From Gammaproteobacteria bacterium (GTDB lineage Bacteria; Pseudomonadota; Gammaproteobacteria; Pseudomonadales; Halieaceae), in NCBI GenBank assembly GCA_030427085.1, contig JAUHXH010000001.1, forward strand, positions 496,001 to 560,000: 64,000 nucleotides of DNA, read 5' to 3'. The position numbers and the translations under genes are program-made. The notes under the pieces were generated by a model that was given only the letters and a program-made list of their open reading frames with translations, was not told the DNA's origin and did no database searches. Of the stretch, positions 36,616 through 46,351 are shown one piece after another (position 1 is the first letter of the stretch; the number at the start of each line of letters is the position of its first letter).

Positions 36616-37977
36616 CTAGCGTAGCCCGGAGTGCGCTTCCAGCGCGTGCAGGAAGCGCCCGACCTTGTCCAGTGTCTCCTGGAACTCCTCCTCACAGTTG
36701 GAGTCGGCGACGATACCGCCGCCGCCCCAGCAGTGTAGCTGCCCCTCGCGCGCGACCAGGGTGCGGATGGTGATGTTGCTGTCCATCCTGCCATCGGCGC
36801 TGATATAAAGGGCTGAACCACAGTAGGCTTGCCGGGGCTGCGGTTCGAGTTCCGCGATAATTTCCATTGCACGCCGTTTCGGGGCGCCGGTGATGGAGCC
36901 GCCCGGGAAGCTGTCGCGCAGCAAGTCCACTGCACTGCGGTCGGCGAGTAATTCGCCGCTGATGGTGCTTACCAGGTGGTGTACGGTGGGGTAGCTTTCC
37001 ACACTGAACAGGTTGTCTACCCGAATCGAGCCCGGTTCGCAGTTGCGCCCCAGGTCGTTGCGTAGCAAGTCGACAATCATCAGGTTTTCAGCCCGGTCCT
37101 TGCGACTGTTGCGCAACTCGGTAGCCAGTTGCCAGTCTCGCTCGGGATCGTCGAGGGCGCGCGGCCGGGTGCCTTTGATCGGCCGGGTTTCTACCCTGCG
37201 GCTTTTCAGGCTGAGGAAGCGTTCCGGTGAAACACACAGCACGGCACCTTCAGCCTGCGTCAAATAGGCGGAAAAGGGCGCACCGGCGATAGATCGCAGC
37301 AGTTTATACGCCGTAAAAGGGTCACCTTCGTATGGTGCGGTGAAATGCCGGGCCAGGTTGACCTGGTAACAGTCACCCGCCAGCAAATAATCGGCGATGG
37401 CCCCAAACGCCTCGGCGTAGGTGTCGGCATCGAAGGCAGTATCAAAAGCCCCACTCAGCCTGAAAGGTGCAGACTGCGAAACGATGGCCTTGTCGCGTAG
37501 GCGGCGCAGTAAATCGGCACGCAGCGATGCATCCAGGGCAGGCAGGGCGACCAGCGCAGAACGTGCCAGTAGATGATCCTGGATGACACACCAGTCGTAG
37601 GCCTTCACGTTGGCCAGTGGTGTGTTCGCCTGGCCGGGTACGTCGATTCCATGTAGTCGGCTACCGAGTTCATAGCCGAGATAACCCAGCAGTCCGCCGC
37701 AAAATGGCCACTCGCCATCGGCACTCTGTACGTCGTGATAACGGGAGCGGTGGTAGTAGGCCAGCTCCGCGAAGTATGACTCGGCGCCGGCCTGGTCGGT
37801 GTCTCCGGACAGAGCCTGCGGGCTGTCAGTTGCCGGCATTGCCACCATGATGTCGTAGCGGCCGGCGCTGGCGGCTCCGTGGCAGCTATCCAGAAAGGCA
37901 GCATCCGGCAGCTCCCGCAGTACTTCAAACAGGGCTGCGGAATCGGCTTGGTATGGAATTTCGTCGATGTGGAGCAT
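36616..37977 (-). CDS. pabB: aminodeoxychorismate synthase component I
   Basis: PabB converts chorismate and ammonia to 4-amino-4-deoxychorismate for folate. The 453 residues show the chorismate-binding domain in the C-terminal half: GDCYQVNLAR near 200, SPERFLSL near 250, KGTRPR near 268, SRKDRAENLMIVDLLRNDLGR near 290 and the FPGGSITGAPKRRAM block near 383. The ATG at 37977 is chosen; an upstream TTG nine codons earlier is weaker. It is convergent with thrH and divergent from the propionyl-CoA operon. Chorismate comes from aroC, at the left end of this window. Confidence 0.95.
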   Translation of the reverse strand: MLHIDEIPYQADSAALFEVLRELPDAAFLDSCHGAASAGRYDIMVAMPATDSPQALSGDTDQAGAESYFAELAYYHRSRYHDVQSADGEWPFCGGLLGYLGYELGSRLHGIDVPGQANTPLANVKAYDWCVIQDHLLARSALVALPALDASLRADLLRRLRDKAIVSQSAPFRLSGAFDTAFDADTYAEAFGAIADYLLAGDCYQVNLARHFTAPYEGDPFTAYKLLRSIAGAPFSAYLTQAEGAVLCVSPERFLSLKSRRVETRPIKGTRPRALDDPERDWQLATELRNSRKDRAENLMIVDLLRNDLGRNCEPGSIRVDNLFSVESYPTVHHLVSTISGELLADRSAVDLLRDSFPGGSITGAPKRRAMEIIAELEPQPRQAYCGSALYISADGRMDSNITIRTLVAREGQLHCWGGGGIVADSNCEEEFQETLDKVGRFLHALEAHSGLR

Positions 37978-37999
37978 GTCTACCCGCGCTGGCCCAGGC

Positions 38000-38070
38000 G
38001 TCAATTTCGGTCAATTTTTCTGTCAGTTGGAGAAATTGACTCACTTATACCCCTGAATTACTGTGAGTCG
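38000..38070 (+). promoter_or_regulatory. promoter with nested inverted repeats for the propionyl-CoA operon
   Basis: TTGACT (38036-38041) and TACTGT (38059-38064) are 17 bases apart, a good sigma70 pair directed toward the carboxylase genes. GTCAATTT occurs at 38000-38007 and 38010-38017 (one helical turn apart) and inverted as AAATTGAC at 38033-38040. A second perfect inverted repeat, GACTCAC (38038-38044) and GTGAGTC (38063-38069), overlaps both promoter boxes. A dedicated repressor or activator is inferred; none is encoded beside it. Confidence 0.6.
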
Positions 38071-38190
38071 CCGCTGCAAAATCAGGCCTGCATCCTATGC
38101 TTGTAGAGCAGTGTGCGCAAATTCCCCCGAGCAAGAGGAATCGGATCTACCGCGCTCGCGACGTATCTGGGCCCGGTAACGCCTACCATT

Positions 38191-39924
38191 ATGACAACCG
38201 CCAAAGACAACGCACTTATCGCATCCCTGGACAATCCCTTTGCTGAAGCCCAGGAAGTGGAATTCAAGGTACCCGGCCAGGTCGCTTCCGAGCCCGGTTT
38301 GTACGAGACCGCGCTGAAAGCCGGCTGGGAACTCCAGCAGCGACCGTATCAGGCTGCCGGCCTGAAAAATATCCAGCGGCAACACCAGAAAAACCGGATG
38401 ACCGTGTGGGAGCGGATTCGCTTTCTCGCGGACGAAGAACCCAAGGTGTTGTACCAGAACTGGGGGCCCAACCTGGACGGTGCCTCGCTGGTTACCGCGT
38501 TGATCCGTGTCGGCGGCCGGGACATCGCCATCTACGGGCACGATTTTACCGTCCGCGCCGGCTCCATGGATGCCACCAACGGTAAAAAACTGGCGCGACT
38601 GTTCGAGCTGGCGGCCAAACGCCGCATCCCCCTTGTGGGGCTTAACGATTCCGCAGGTGCTTACATTCCTGCCGGTGTCGGTGGCCTTGACGGCTACGCC
38701 GATGCCTTTACTGCGCTGCGCAAGATCAGCGGCGTGGTGCCCTCCATCATGTGTATGTTCGGTTTTAATGCCGGCGGTGGTTCCTATCTGCCACGGCAGG
38801 GTTCTTTCCTGATTCAGCCCAATGACACCTTTTTCGGCCTGACCGGGCCGGGCGTGGTGAAGTCGGTGTTGGGTGAAGACGTGACTCCCGATGAACTCGG
38901 TGGGCCGGGTGTACACAGCCAGAGCGGTGTAACTGATTTCTGTGTGCCGGATGAAGTGGCCGCGCTGCGCAAAGTGCGCGCGCTGCTGAACTATCTGCCC
39001 AGCCACAACGGCGAGCTGGCGCCGCACCAGGCGTCTTCCGATCCGGTCAATCGCAAGACCTGGGATATCGATATTCTGCTGAAAAAAGCCTTTAACTCGC
39101 CGACCGGATTCAACACCCCAATCGACATCAGCATCATGATCCAGCAGCTTTGCGATCACGGTGACTTCCTTGAAGTGCAGGCGGAGCGGGCACGTAATAC
39201 CGTTACCGCGCTGGGTCGTATGGGTGGCAACGTGGTGGGCTTTGTAGCCAACAATTCAGCGGTTTCTTCCGGCCAGATCGATATTGCGGCGGCCTATAAG
39301 AACGCGCGTTTTATCCGTTTTTGCAATCTCTACAACATCCCGGTGATTTTCCTGGAAGACACTACAGGCTTCCTGCCGGGTCGTGAGCAGGAGAGCAACG
39401 GTATCGTTCAGGCCGGTCGCGCCATGCTGGACGCCATTGTCGATTTGCGCACGCCGCGCTTCCTGGTGCTGGTACGTAACGCCTTTGGCGGCGCTTATGC
39501 GTCCTACAACAACTATCCGACAGGCGCCGACTTTGTTGTCGCGCTGCCCACCACGCGTGTGGCGGTGATGGGCCCGGCCGGGGTGGAGTATGTCTACAAG
39601 GATGAGCTGAAGAAAATTCGCGGCTCCGTGGCGCAGCGCATTGACGATGAATGTCAGGCGCAAATGTCTGCCGGTTTGTCGGAGTCCCAGGCGCGGGAGA
39701 CGGCGCAGCAACTGGTACAGGACTGGGTCAAGGCCGAGGAACAATTGCTGGCACAACGTTACGAGCGGGAACTTATGAATCCGAATGAGGCCCTCAGCCT
39801 TGGGTCGATTTCGCAGATTGTCATGCCCTCGGATTTACGCCAGGTACTGGCTGAGCATATGGACTTCTGCCTGCGACACTACCAGGCCAGCCCCATGCAG
39901 TCCGTACAGCGTGAATTCCACTAA
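38191..39924 (+). CDS. acyl-CoA carboxylase carboxyltransferase (beta) subunit, probably propionyl-CoA
   Basis: The 577-residue crotonase-fold carboxyltransferase carries [23 protein letters not shown] near 150, [13 protein letters not shown] near 190, [12 protein letters not shown] near 390 and [14 protein letters not shown] near 430, which bind CoA and carboxybiotin. It is longer than usual PccB (about 510-540) and clearly divergent in its first 100 residues. Propionyl-CoA as substrate is inferred from the epimerase and mutase downstream. The ATG at 38191 lacks a clear ribosome site; the upstream open frame lies in the leader. Confidence 0.88.
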
Positions 39925-39955: not shown

Positions 39956-42787
39956 GTGTCCAACGAACACTACCTGCGCAATCCACTGATTCACCGCGAC
40001 CGTCAACTGGCACGGCGGGGCTCGGAGTGGGTGAAACAATTTGATTGCACGCATTTGCGTCCGCTGATTATTTGCCGTGGTCCGATTCGCAAAGAAGCGA
40101 TGGATGTCTTCACCGAAATGGGTATTGCAGATTTCGGCATCCTGCTGTCAGAGAAAGACTCTATCGTGTACCAGAATGCGCTGGCCCCCGAGCTGCGCAG
40201 CATGGCAAACCCGGATCATATCCATCGCGTTCCGGATTACACCGGCGCCAACCGCGAGGAGCGCGCCCAGCGTATCGAGCAGATCATCGCCATCGCCCGG
40301 GACAACGACTACAACGCGATATTTGCCGGCTACGGTTTCATGGCCGAAGACGAGACCATGGTAGCGGCGATGGAAGCAGCCGGTCTTAATTTTATCGGCC
40401 CCTGCTCGCGCACGGTGCACGACGCGGGCTTGAAAGATGAAGCGAAACGTACGGCCCTGAAGGCGGGCGTATCCGTTACACCGGGTATCGACAACGGCAC
40501 CGCGCTCACCCTGTTGAAAAAGTATCCGACCGTTGCGGACCTCAAAGCGCTGTGCCAGCAACACGGCCTGGCCGTGGATGACAGTGCACTGGATGATCCG
40601 GAAACGGCGCTGGAAGATAAAGCGGATCTCGTGTTGGCCGCCAGCTACGACAAGCTGGTAGATCTGTACACCGTTGATGAGCTCTGCGAAACCCTCACCG
40701 AAGCTGTGCAACGCATGGCAGAAGAGTACCCGCAGAATCGGGTGCGACTGAAAGCGATCAGCGGCGGCGGCGGTAAAGGCCAGCGGATTCTGGGTATCGG
40801 TGAAGCGGCGCGCACGCCCGAAATGGTGCGTGAAATTCTCAACGAGGTGAAAACCACCGGCGTCGGCGATAACAAGAACGTGCTGGTGGAGTTGAATATC
40901 GAGACCACCCGGCACCAGGAGATACAGGTTATCGGCAACGGTGACTGGTGTATCACCCTCGGCGGTCGCGACTGCTCACTGCAGATGCACGAACAGAAAC
41001 TGCTGGAAGTCTCTGTTACCGTCGAGTCGCTGCGTGCGGCTATCGAGCAGGCGCAGGCCAGCGGCAACGACACCGAACTGGCAGTGCTGCAACAGGATTT
41101 GCTTACCCTGGAGGCAATGGAAGATGAGGCCTCCCGTTTTGGTGCGGCGGTGGGGCTCGATTCCGTATCCACCTTCGAGTGTATCGTGGATCGCGACAAG
41201 CATTTCTTCATGGAAATGAACACGCGGATTCAGGTTGAGCATCGCGTGACTGAACTGTGTTACGCCTTGCAGTTCAGCAACCCCGAGAATCCGGACGATT
41301 CATTCATGGTGGAATCGCTGGTTGAAGCCATGGTCCTGTTGGCGGCCCATGGTGAGCGCCTGCCGCGTCCGGATCGTATTCTGCGGCACAATGACAGTGT
41401 TGAAGCGCGCCTCAATGCCACCAACCAGGCGCTGCAGCCCAGTGCCGGTGGCGTGATCGAGTACTGGTCCGACGCTGTGGCGGGGGAAATTCGGGATGAC
41501 CAGGGCATCAGCCTGCACAACCCCGACACCGACACCTTTATGAAATACACCCTGGCAGGGGCCTACGATTCCAACATCGCCTTGCTGTTGACCGTGGGTG
41601 AGACGCGCCTGGACACCTACGAGCGTATGGCCGAGGTGATCCGCCAGACCAACATGCGCGGCAAGGATCTGGCCACCAATCTGGAGTTTCACTACGGTCT
41701 GGTGAACTGGTTTATCGGGCAGAACATCAATGCCCGGCCTACGACGCGGTTCATCGTGCCTTATCTGACCGCAGTCGGGGAGCTGAAACAGCAGGCCAAC
41801 AACCTGGACCTCGACTACGCCTGGCGTTCGGTAGTGAAATCAAACGTGGCCACGGCAGAAGGCGATGCCGCCCAGGCGCTGTCGCTGGCACTGCAAAGCA
41901 AGCAGACCTTATTGCTGCGCCCGGTGGAGCAATTGCTGGCGCAGCCTCACATTCTGGCGGGTTGGCTCAGCGTGAACCGGGAAAGCTATAGCGTGGAAAA
42001 CGGCCGTATCCGCTGGCAGGAAAACCCGGTGGAATTGTTGGGCGACAGCTACCACTACCTGAACATGGACTACGTGGACGGCGCGCCAGCCGCCACCATG
42101 ATTTGGGATCACGACCACAAGCTGCTGCAACAGGCACTGGATTTCTATGCAGAGCTGAACAATCGCGTGCAGGTATCCAACTGGGCTGAGCTCGAGGCGC
42201 TGCTGTCTAGTTCCGAAACCCCCGAAGGCTTCGATGCAGGCCTGTGGCAACAAACACAAGCCGCTCACCTGGGCTTCCAGGCGGGTACCGAAATTCTGGG
42301 TGTGCTGCCCTGTATTGCCGAGGCAACCGGCTTCTTTGATCTCACCGTCAACCCGGATCTCACCATCCACATCCCCGAAAAGCTGCTGGATTCCGAGCTA
42401 CAGGAGGCCATGGCTAAAGTACTGGTGCCGCCGCCCGTGGCCAAGAGCGATGAAATCCTGGCGGAGAGTGGCGGTATGTTCTATCCCCGCGAATCGCCCG
42501 ACCAGGCGGTCTACGTCAGTGAGGGCGACCACTTTGAGGCCGGCGATCCGCTGTATATCGTGGAAGTGATGAAGATGTTCAATAAGGTGTACGCACCCTT
42601 CGCCGGCACCATCGACAAGGTACTGGTTGAAGAAGATGGCGTGATCATCAGCAAGGGTCAGCCGCTGTTCAAGATCACACCCGATGAAAAGATTGTTATT
42701 GAATCACCCGAGGAGATCGCTGCCCGGCAACGTCAGGTCAGCGACCAATTCCTCGCCCAACTGCAACCCGGAGGTGCCAGCGCATGA
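39956..42787 (+). CDS. atypical biotin carboxylase with fused biotin carrier domain
   Basis: The 943-residue protein carboxylates its own biotin with ATP and bicarbonate. Recognisable pieces are AIFAGYGFMAED near 121, NFIGPCSR near 145, the ATP-grasp loop SGGGGKGQR at 269-277, MNTRIQVEHRVTE near 421-433 and the biotinylation motif EVMKM at 870-874 (Lys873). It departs from normal alpha subunits (about 650-670 residues): the N-terminal NRGEIA motif is replaced by CRGPIRKEA, about 65 extra residues separate GYGF from the GGGG loop, and about 300 residues lie before the carrier domain. GAGGAT precedes the GTG. It overlaps the epimerase gene by four bases. Confidence 0.87.
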   Translation: MSNEHYLRNPLIHRDRQLARRGSEWVKQFDCTHLRPLIICRGPIRKEAMDVFTEMGIADFGILLSEKDSIVYQNALAPELRSMANPDHIHRVPDYTGANREERAQRIEQIIAIARDNDYNAIFAGYGFMAEDETMVAAMEAAGLNFIGPCSRTVHDAGLKDEAKRTALKAGVSVTPGIDNGTALTLLKKYPTVADLKALCQQHGLAVDDSALDDPETALEDKADLVLAASYDKLVDLYTVDELCETLTEAVQRMAEEYPQNRVRLKAISGGGGKGQRILGIGEAARTPEMVREILNEVKTTGVGDNKNVLVELNIETTRHQEIQVIGNGDWCITLGGRDCSLQMHEQKLLEVSVTVESLRAAIEQAQASGNDTELAVLQQDLLTLEAMEDEASRFGAAVGLDSVSTFECIVDRDKHFFMEMNTRIQVEHRVTELCYALQFSNPENPDDSFMVESLVEAMVLLAAHGERLPRPDRILRHNDSVEARLNATNQALQPSAGGVIEYWSDAVAGEIRDDQGISLHNPDTDTFMKYTLAGAYDSNIALLLTVGETRLDTYERMAEVIRQTNMRGKDLATNLEFHYGLVNWFIGQNINARPTTRFIVPYLTAVGELKQQANNLDLDYAWRSVVKSNVATAEGDAAQALSLALQSKQTLLLRPVEQLLAQPHILAGWLSVNRESYSVENGRIRWQENPVELLGDSYHYLNMDYVDGAPAATMIWDHDHKLLQQALDFYAELNNRVQVSNWAELEALLSSSETPEGFDAGLWQQTQAAHLGFQAGTEILGVLPCIAEATGFFDLTVNPDLTIHIPEKLLDSELQEAMAKVLVPPPVAKSDEILAESGGMFYPRESPDQAVYVSEGDHFEAGDPLYIVEVMKMFNKVYAPFAGTIDKVLVEEDGVIISKGQPLFKITPDEKIVIESPEEIAARQRQVSDQFLAQLQPGGASA

Positions 42788-43194
42788 TTACTGCTCTGGA
42801 TCATATCGCCATTGCTGTGCCCGACTTCGAGGGTGCGGTGAAACGTTTCATGGAAGATTTTGGCCTGCCCTTTGAAGGGACAGAAGACGTCGCGTCCGCC
42901 AAAACCAGCACAGCCTTCTTCCCCCTGCCGCCCACCAGTATCGAGCTGGTTCACCCCCTGAACGGCGAGGGGCCTATTGCCAAGTATCTGGAGAAGCGCG
43001 GTGGTGGGCTCCACCACCTGTGTTTTCGCACTGACAACATCGACGAAGACGTGGCTCGCTTACAGAAAAAGGGCTATCAGTTTCTGTCCGAAGCCCCCAC
43101 GCCCGGCGCGCACGGTGCCCGCGTTATTTTTATTCACCCCAAGTGTTGCGACGGCGTCCTGATTGAACTCAGTCAGCCCAGCGATAACCACTGA
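42784..43194 (+). CDS. mce: methylmalonyl-CoA epimerase
   Basis: This 136-residue glyoxalase-fold enzyme interconverts (S)- and (R)-methylmalonyl-CoA. The metal ligands are visible: His7 in LDHIAIAV, a glutamine/glutamate position, His in GGGLHHLCF near 76 and Glu in GVLIELSQP near 128. It starts inside the carboxylase stop (ATGA) and is followed by the mutase after 15 bases. Confidence 0.94.
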   Translation: MITALDHIAIAVPDFEGAVKRFMEDFGLPFEGTEDVASAKTSTAFFPLPPTSIELVHPLNGEGPIAKYLEKRGGGLHHLCFRTDNIDEDVARLQKKGYQFLSEAPTPGAHGARVIFIHPKCCDGVLIELSQPSDNH

Positions 43195-43209
43195 CTGCGA
43201 GGTATAGCC

Positions 43210-45366
<2,157 letters not shown>

Positions 45367-45388
45367 CTACACTGGCGCCACATCTCCA

Positions 45389-46351
45389 ATGACTTCGTCT
45401 ATCTCTGTGGCAGCGCTGCGCACGGGCGACCGCCGTTCGCTGGCCAAGGCGATTACCCTGGTTGAGAGCAAGCTCGACAAGCACCGCGAGCAAGCTCAGG
45501 CGGTGTTGGAGCAGGCGCTACCGCACACCGGCAACAGTGTTCGCATCGGTATCACCGGTGTACCCGGCGTGGGTAAATCCACCTTTATCGAGGCATTTGG
45601 CCTGTACTTGATCGAGCAGGGTAAGCGGGTCGCGGTGCTCGCCGTAGACCCCAGTTCCCCGATTGCCGGTGGCTCGATTCTCGGTGACAAAACCCGCATG
45701 GAAGAGTTGTCCCGGCGAGAGGAGGCGTTTATCCGTCCGTCGCCCTCGGAAGGCGCCCTTGGCGGCGTTGCCCACAAAACGCGCGAAACCCTGTTGCTGT
45801 GCGAGGCGGCGGGCTACGACGTGATTCTGGTGGAAACCGTGGGAGTAGGGCAGTCAGAGTATCAGGTAGCTGCCATGGTGGATTTTTTCATGGTGCTGAT
45901 GCTGCCCGGCGGTGGTGATGAACTGCAGGGTATCAAAAAGGGCATCATGGAATTGGCCGACGCCCTGGTGATCAACAAGGCCGACGGTGAAAGCGCCCAA
46001 CTGGCCCAAAAAACCCGCCAGCACTACACCAGTGCGATGAACCTGCTGCGCCACACTTCCTTCTGGACGCCGCGGGTGATGACTTGCTCGGCACTGCAGG
46101 GGGACAATATTGCCGCCGTGTGGGGCATGATTCTGGACTTCTACTTCGAAGCGGTCGACAACGGGACGCTCTCCGGCCAGCGCAGTCGCCAGAACCGCGA
46201 CTGGATGCATCAGTTGATCGGCGAGATGTTACAAATGCGTCTGGCTGCCAACAAGGAGGCCCAGGCCTTGCTGCCGAAACTGGAGGACGATGTTGCCAAT
46301 CACCGCATTACCCCCTTTGCGGCGGCCCATCAGGTGCTAAGCTGCCTCTAG
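45389..46351 (+). CDS. meaB: methylmalonyl-CoA mutase-associated GTPase MeaB
   Basis: MeaB is a G3E-family GTPase that protects and reloads the mutase. The 320 residues show Walker A GVPGVGKST near 57, DPSSPIAGGSILGDKTRM near 89, ETVGVGQSE near 150 and the NKADG guanine motif near 196. It closes the carboxylase-epimerase-mutase series, so the operon encodes the whole propionyl-CoA route to the TCA cycle with its chaperone. Confidence 0.95.
   Translation: MTSSISVAALRTGDRRSLAKAITLVESKLDKHREQAQAVLEQALPHTGNSVRIGITGVPGVGKSTFIEAFGLYLIEQGKRVAVLAVDPSSPIAGGSILGDKTRMEELSRREEAFIRPSPSEGALGGVAHKTRETLLLCEAAGYDVILVETVGVGQSEYQVAAMVDFFMVLMLPGGGDELQGIKKGIMELADALVINKADGESAQLAQKTRQHYTSAMNLLRHTSFWTPRVMTCSALQGDNIAAVWGMILDFYFEAVDNGTLSGQRSRQNRDWMHQLIGEMLQMRLAANKEAQALLPKLEDDVANHRITPFAAAHQVLSCL

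Follow-up and report, generated by a model that had tools for sequence, protein, structure and literature searches.

Dimeric one-component repressors, as a general class, can act through inverted-repeat operators that overlap the -35 box, and structured 5' leaders and riboswitches place structured RNA ahead of metabolic operons. BirA sites have a long spacer. For the propionyl-CoA pathway itself, PccR, a member of the ScfR family, is described as an activator in Rhodobacter (PMC10370305), and related pathways in other Proteobacteria are described as being under the control of global or pathway regulators (PMC5343134; PMC10370305), with BirA sites being termed inverted repeats (PMC5343134). Among the literature entries listed, read at the level of abstract openings, nothing concerned the pcc promoter or the leader that are the subject of this study.

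The promoter was analysed in a 64,000-nucleotide stretch of DNA (the window) from a genome of the family Halieaceae; at the protein level Parahaliea mediterranea is closest to it, with 91% across the first operon gene. That gene (38191..39924, plus strand) encodes an acyl-CoA (propionyl-CoA) carboxylase carboxyltransferase subunit (PF01039, E=2.6e-103). The remainder of the operon (39956..46351, plus strand), assigned by Pfam, encodes a biotin carboxylase/carrier, a glyoxalase-fold epimerase-like protein, methylmalonyl-CoA mutase and MeaB, and this content points to propionyl-CoA as the substrate of the carboxylase. The divergent neighbour is a pabB-like chorismate-binding enzyme (36616..37977, minus strand; PF00425, PF04715), which is also found, by inspection of translated upstream ORFs, in 11 relatives. 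The first-pass annotation was thus correct that no regulator gene adjoins the operon, in the window as in the 11 relatives inspected. No near-matches to plasmids were found.

The same annotation had placed a promoter at TTGACT (-35 hexamer, 38036..38041, plus strand) and TACTGT (-10 hexamer, 38059..38064, plus strand) with a 17-bp spacer, and this assignment is borne out across the family. We compared 83 homologous loci (80 named loci, the window and two further genomes) in a gap-free alignment on the -35 box, taking from each 420 bp the best place for a TTGAC-like box, 17 bp and a second box in which A2 and T6 were required. Of the 83 loci, 69 have a promoter of this form, some perhaps by chance, and 14 loci were skipped. 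For the promoter rows, the 69 loci were thinned to 61, and 9 of 52 further fetched regions were added (4 had no promoter of this form and the others were near-copies of rows already included). TTGAC is present in 76 of 78 aligned rows, all picked for resemblance to the window promoter, and TAATGT, TACTGT, TATCGT or TAAGGT in 63 of 78, A2 and T6 having been required in choosing the rows. Information per position is 1.1-1.9 bits in the -35 hexamer and 0.4-1.9 in the -10 box, and reaches at most 0.4 in columns -110 to -11. A generic sigma-70 consensus scan did not list TTGACT-17-TACTGT, and TACTGT has 3 of 6 consensus bases. On this comparison, TTGACT-17-TACTGT is the predicted family-wide sigma-70 promoter of the pcc/methylmalonyl-CoA mutase operon, and the position of its -10 box would place the transcription start near 38071. 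A TGCGTTGAAA-like word lies upstream of the -35 box in L050, L053, L059, L064, L065, L070 and L083; at least two copies, about 22 bp apart by eye, are present in 7 of 83 loci and mark another site, specific to a lineage, ahead of this promoter.

Over this promoter the first-pass annotation reported nested inverted repeats, and all of them are literally present in the window letters, exact and with the spacing given there. GTCAATTT occurs twice, at 38000-38007 (outer copy) and 38010-38017 (inner copy), 10 bp apart, and its reverse complement AAATTGAC lies at 38033-38040. The inner copy and AAATTGAC make up dyad 1; paired with the outer copy, the perfect dyad extends to 9 bp, GTCAATTTC/GAAATTGAC. 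Dyad 2 consists of GACTCAC (38038-38044) and GTGAGTC (38063-38069), placed around both promoter hexamers. In 1000 dinucleotide shuffles of 37980-38190 (211 bp; perfect arms, gap 3-40), at least one perfect dyad of 9 bp appeared in 1.3%, of 8 bp in 6% and of 7 bp in 26%. The segment has three 8-bp dyad pairs, a number reached in 0.1% of shuffles; 2.8% of shuffles contained a direct repeat of 8 bp within 20 bp. Among 303 window tiles of 211 bp, perfect dyads of 7, 8 and 9 bp were found in 42%, 16% and 3%, respectively. On its own, the 7-bp dyad 2 is unremarkable and dyad 1 is only mildly rare. With chance frequencies this high, the dyads by themselves are weak proof, and conservation must decide.

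Five loci are the nearest to the window among those that have dyad 1: Parahaliea maris (L033), P. mediterranea (L034), Sediminihaliea albiluteola (L035), strain TN14-10 (L036) and L006. All five, which belong to three other genera, share with the window a 35-bp block (38010..38044, given no strand; it spans column -26 to column +8 relative to the -35 hexamer), at 29-30 of 35 identical positions pairwise, compared with 15-21 of 84 in the left flank and 0.44-0.50 identity at fourfold sites of the first gene. Across the six genomes, 27 of 35 block columns are invariant, versus 5 of the 84 columns on its left and 6 of the 91 that follow the -10 box; with the -35 hexamer removed, 21 of 29 block columns are invariant. 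Three stretches stand out within the block. The left arm of dyad 1, the inner GTCAATTT copy (38010..38017, plus strand), is all-or-none, with 8/8 in all six close loci and a mean of 2.3/8, at most 5/8, in 72 other rows. A third conserved stretch within the dyad, TGTCA (38021..38025, plus strand), is kept 5/5 in 6/6 loci. The right arm AAATTGAC (38033..38040, minus strand), which overlaps the -35 hexamer, is invariant in the six loci, but most of it is conserved throughout the family, since its bases double as the -35 region; the independent evidence therefore consists of the left arm and TGTCA only.

Exact dyad 1 is found in 6 of the 83 homologous loci and, genome-wide, once in each of six genomes (four genera), every time at the pcc promoter. 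The protein tree places the five relatives together in a starred clade, to which the window is attached through a fork that is not resolved. A single origin of dyad 1 would fit this tree (support 70, not starred, against 33 leader-labelled loci with 44 rows uncounted), and the six related dyad loci probably amount to one evolutionary origin. The conservation upstream of orthologous operons that the first-pass annotation proposed as a check is therefore seen for dyad 1, within one lineage, and is lacking for dyad 2, which is present in 1 of 83 loci. Taken together, the comparison supports the view that the dyad over the -35 box has been kept by selection. Around the block, a CTTGAATTGCGT stretch lies about 30-50 bp left of the -35 box in the five relatives and is absent in the window, and the pabB start of the window is much nearer dyad 1 than theirs.

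One of the reported dyads is thus a conserved site and most likely an operator. We estimate at roughly 0.6 the probability that dyad 1 is a single protein-binding operator, through which an unlinked putative factor represses by way of the -35 box. The block is kept in a randomised background and lies over the -35 box of a more widespread promoter, which argues for the operator of one protein. Because exact dyad 1 is unique in each genome, the factor is more likely to be dedicated than global. It would be a DNA-binding protein, unlinked and probably dimeric, that binds GTCAATTT-N15-AAATTGAC and might make an extra contact at TGTCA. The centre of the bound site would lie some 46 bp ahead of the predicted start, with one half-site covering the -35 box. 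The most likely mode would be repression through blocking of the -35 box, relieved as a pathway metabolite accumulates; the first-pass annotation had named propionyl-CoA, methylcitrate or a fatty-acid signal as candidates. Since relatives carry the promoter without the block, a repressor added onto a working promoter is the simplest mode. The analysis shows the sequence of dyad 1, its conservation, its single exact occurrence in each of the six genomes and its confinement to one lineage; from there, protein binding, repression and a sensed metabolite are inferred. An activator mode, which the weak -10 box would suit, is possible.

Dyad 1 could instead be a pair of back-to-back -35 boxes, with AAATTGAC on the minus strand serving pabB and AAATTGACT on the plus strand serving pcc. 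The pabB-like gene is indeed divergent and adjoining, and the left arm in the five relatives reads as TTGACA on the minus strand. No -10 box was found for the minus-strand box, however: at spacers of 15-19 the best candidate matches 1 of 6 bases for the window and 2 of 6 for the five relatives. This arrangement would also leave the conserved TGTCA unexplained, and we consider it unlikely.

Binding of the block by a known regulator, whether global or specific to the pathway (BirA, FadR, PsrA, LiuR, ScfR/PccR), is also improbable. Regulators of this kind do act, as described, on related pathways in other Proteobacteria (PMC5343134; PMC10370305), and G036, alone among the six dyad genomes, has an ScfR protein. 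The window's own genome, however, has no match to ScfR (PF09856), and 5 of 140 family genomes have one, so that a PccR-type regulator at the window promoter is unlikely. GTCAATTT is presumably also unlike BirA, FadR or PsrA sites. A regulon-wide factor should have more sites, but dyad 1 with at most two mismatches occurs at 7 additional places across the six genomes, of which the window's own genome has none, versus 3 for a reversed control. The half-pattern TGTCAATTTTCNTGTCA, at the same tolerance, occurs at 13 additional places versus 5 for its control; 8 of the 13, including the one in the window's own genome, lie inside open frames of more than 200 aa. No regulon of dyad 1 or TGTCAATTTTCNTGTCA was found in the six genomes searched at this tolerance, and a small regulon is possible.

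The first-pass annotation had taken the two dyads to suggest either a pair of regulators or a single one that uses composite sites, dyad 2 bracketing both promoter boxes. Both dyads are exact in the window, and the left arm of dyad 2, GACTCAC, belongs to the conserved block and does not vary among the six loci. Its right arm GTGAGTC (38063..38069, minus strand), however, occurs in none of the five relatives, which have GTGTTGC (two), GTGTTTC, GTTATCG and GTTTGGC at this position, and a 7-bp dyad is frequent in the shuffles, as given above. We judge the right arm to be a product of chance and reject dyad 2 as a functional site; chance appears to be its best explanation. The outer GTCAATTT copy (38000..38007, plus strand) is window-specific among the six loci, with 0 of 8 columns invariant. 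The five relatives have CGTCTAAA, CGTCCAGA (three) or CGTTCGGA in its place, and it was set aside because they do not share it. With neither the right arm nor the outer copy shared, the two-regulator and composite-site proposals are not supported, and their probability is very small. Just as improbable is a block that has no function and is shared through chance or recent divergence. The relatedness of the six genomes would favour such a view, but their near-random left flank and 44-50% identity at fourfold sites stand against 29-30 of 35 in the block.

Downstream of the operator that we favour, relatives may have a second level of control. Between promoter and first gene, Halieaceae have a pcc leader of about 120 nt, seen in L064 (for example L064:1882-2000), L251, L249, L091, L008, L052 and others. 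A leader sequence model built from 35 rows, the window among them (R1), matched 45 of 140 family genomes at E<=1.5e-5, with one match each, many of these being rows from which R1 was built. By coordinates read by eye, 43 of the 45 matches lie just upstream of the carboxylase match. The exceptions are G130, where the match is on another contig than the carboxylase, whose own match starts 42 bases from the contig end, and G123, which has no carboxylase match. A structured model (R2), applied to 71 sources outside its building set, gave 19 leader-placed matches at E<0.05 (best 3.5e-13). In 390 genomes of the order, searched with stricter filters, it gave six at E<=0.01; all six are model-building genomes, so these are no new carriers.

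Rfam covariance models gave no match at threshold, the upstream regions of seven relatives included, and no known cis-regulatory RNA such as the cobalamin riboswitch reached the Rfam threshold at the pcc leader; three sub-threshold matches were to human or animal families and were judged chance. A coding frame in the leader was dropped by inspection because its distance from the start is variable and an in-frame stop interrupts it in the window. In the Spongiibacter group (L105, L106 and L111), the stems TTGAGAA/TTCTCAA and GCCGT/ACGGC versus ACCGT/ACGGT could be picked out by eye in the pcc leaders, which suggests that a structured pcc leader may exist in another family too.

The first tests for a fold failed. 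RNAalifold predicted 0 pairs (A1, 38 rows), and a stem scan of 40 rows did no better than shuffled columns, with top mutual-information pairs that were not helix-like. For two hand-named helices (A2), covariation score and pair types were not above shuffles, and percentage paired (12/500) and two-sided cells (11/500) were marginal. In 17 Halioglobus-type leaders (A5), RNAalifold gave 7 pairs, with no named helix among them and none with two-sided changes, and a loop-to-TTGCAA pairing was not supported. Over 61 rows, the mean folding z of the leader was -0.76, compared with -0.24 and -0.44 for two upstream control segments. The controls of the swap tests were not uniformly clean. In the first of these tests, which used 43 of 61 rows, 18 having been removed by hand as other leader types, they gave p 0.05 and 0.07, and 0.03 after thinning.

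In ten leaders, picked by eye for divergent hairpins, the hairpin has diverged to 37% identity, and arms paired with their own partners gave -15.6 kcal/mol versus -11.0 kcal/mol with those of others (p 3e-4; controls 0.02 and 0.82). The non-folding L057 was left out of A3 and A4, which thus hold nine of the ten leaders, and was restored in A6. In a MAFFT alignment of the nine, 9 of 12 pairs of hairpin P1 show two-sided changes. P1 covariation is 0.56 versus 0.31 in shuffles (0/500 reach it) and at most 0.225 in slid positions, a control that leans towards P1 because its columns were named after the sequences had been inspected. Unaided, RNAalifold predicted P1, P3 and P2 in the nine leaders (A4), and additionally a three-pair P4 in 13 leaders (A6). 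Across the 13, two-sided cells numbered 15 versus 5.1 and covariation was 0.258 versus 0.173 (0/500 each); pair types were not exceptional (65/500), and P4 and the closing stem had no two-sided change. The partners of this possible closing stem, of three pairs, differ between A4 and A6. Among 18 leaders of the Halioglobus type (the 17 of A5 and L072), arms fitted their own partners at p 0.002 for P4 and, more weakly, p 0.04 for P2 (controls 0.10 and 0.17), and 13 thinned leaders of this type gave 0.006 and 0.05 (controls 0.06 and 0.10). The two-sided changes, for P1 and P2, and the swap tests indicate that the relatives' pcc leader is a structured RNA with compensatory changes, and we regard it as a candidate new cis-regulatory RNA.

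The predicted 5' leader of the window (38071..38190, plus strand) occupies the place of the relatives' structured RNA but has diverged. R1, with the window among the rows that built it, reached E=0.025 in the window's own genome. R2 did not match the leaders of the window, L033, L034 and L006, and in L035 and L036 it scored 16 bits at the right place with E of about 0.5. The window leader folded no better than its shuffles. The leader core TGCATCSTAWGC, with at most one mismatch, had 31 matches in the window's own genome versus 21 for the control, which is uninformative. Before the predicted start ATG of the first gene at 38191, no Shine-Dalgarno-like AGGA occurs in 38176-38190 (GGTAACGCCTACCATT), whereas many relatives have AAGGA or similar before the same ATG.

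A joint reading of both levels can be put forward only tentatively, as a possibility on the doubtful side: pcc would be controlled by lineage-specific operators and by a new riboswitch-like leader of about 120 nt, which has decayed in the window, where the operator may replace it. Under such a scheme the promoter would be conserved, and operator and leader parts would turn over between lineages. The leader would comprise a 5' hairpin P1, a P3/P2 composite hairpin, P4 before the Shine-Dalgarno region and possibly a 5'-3' closing stem. It would form a riboswitch-like class confined to one operon, and what it senses would be a metabolite or cofactor of propionyl-CoA disposal. In the window lineage the RNA would be largely decayed, and the conserved operator may have assumed control.

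For a group of marine bacteria, the analysis offers a precise, testable putative operator through which propionyl-CoA disposal would be regulated, and it separates the reported repeats, indicating which to ignore. The putative operator is an ordinary kind of thing. The leader RNA of the relatives holds more novelty and, should a function be confirmed for it, would add a new cis-regulatory RNA to a pathway that depends on B12 and biotin.

Compared with structured leaders and riboswitches, the relatives' pcc leader is alike in that putative covarying helices lie between the promoter and ribosome-binding site of one metabolic operon, and in that the last hairpin adjoins the Shine-Dalgarno region; it differs in belonging to no Rfam family at threshold and in being found so far only at this operon in Halieaceae. 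With PccR/ScfR control, as described for alphaproteobacteria (PMC10370305), the locus would share a dedicated transcriptional control of the route from propionyl-CoA to succinyl-CoA. ScfR sites, however, are described as two nearly identical boxes (PMC10370305), and the window genome is without an ScfR match. The operators of dimeric repressors differ from dyad 1 in that the latter has an asymmetric extra TGTCA, an exact dyad at a single promoter per genome and a protein that is putative, but dyad 1 resembles them in having arms about two helical turns apart, one of which lies on the -35 box.
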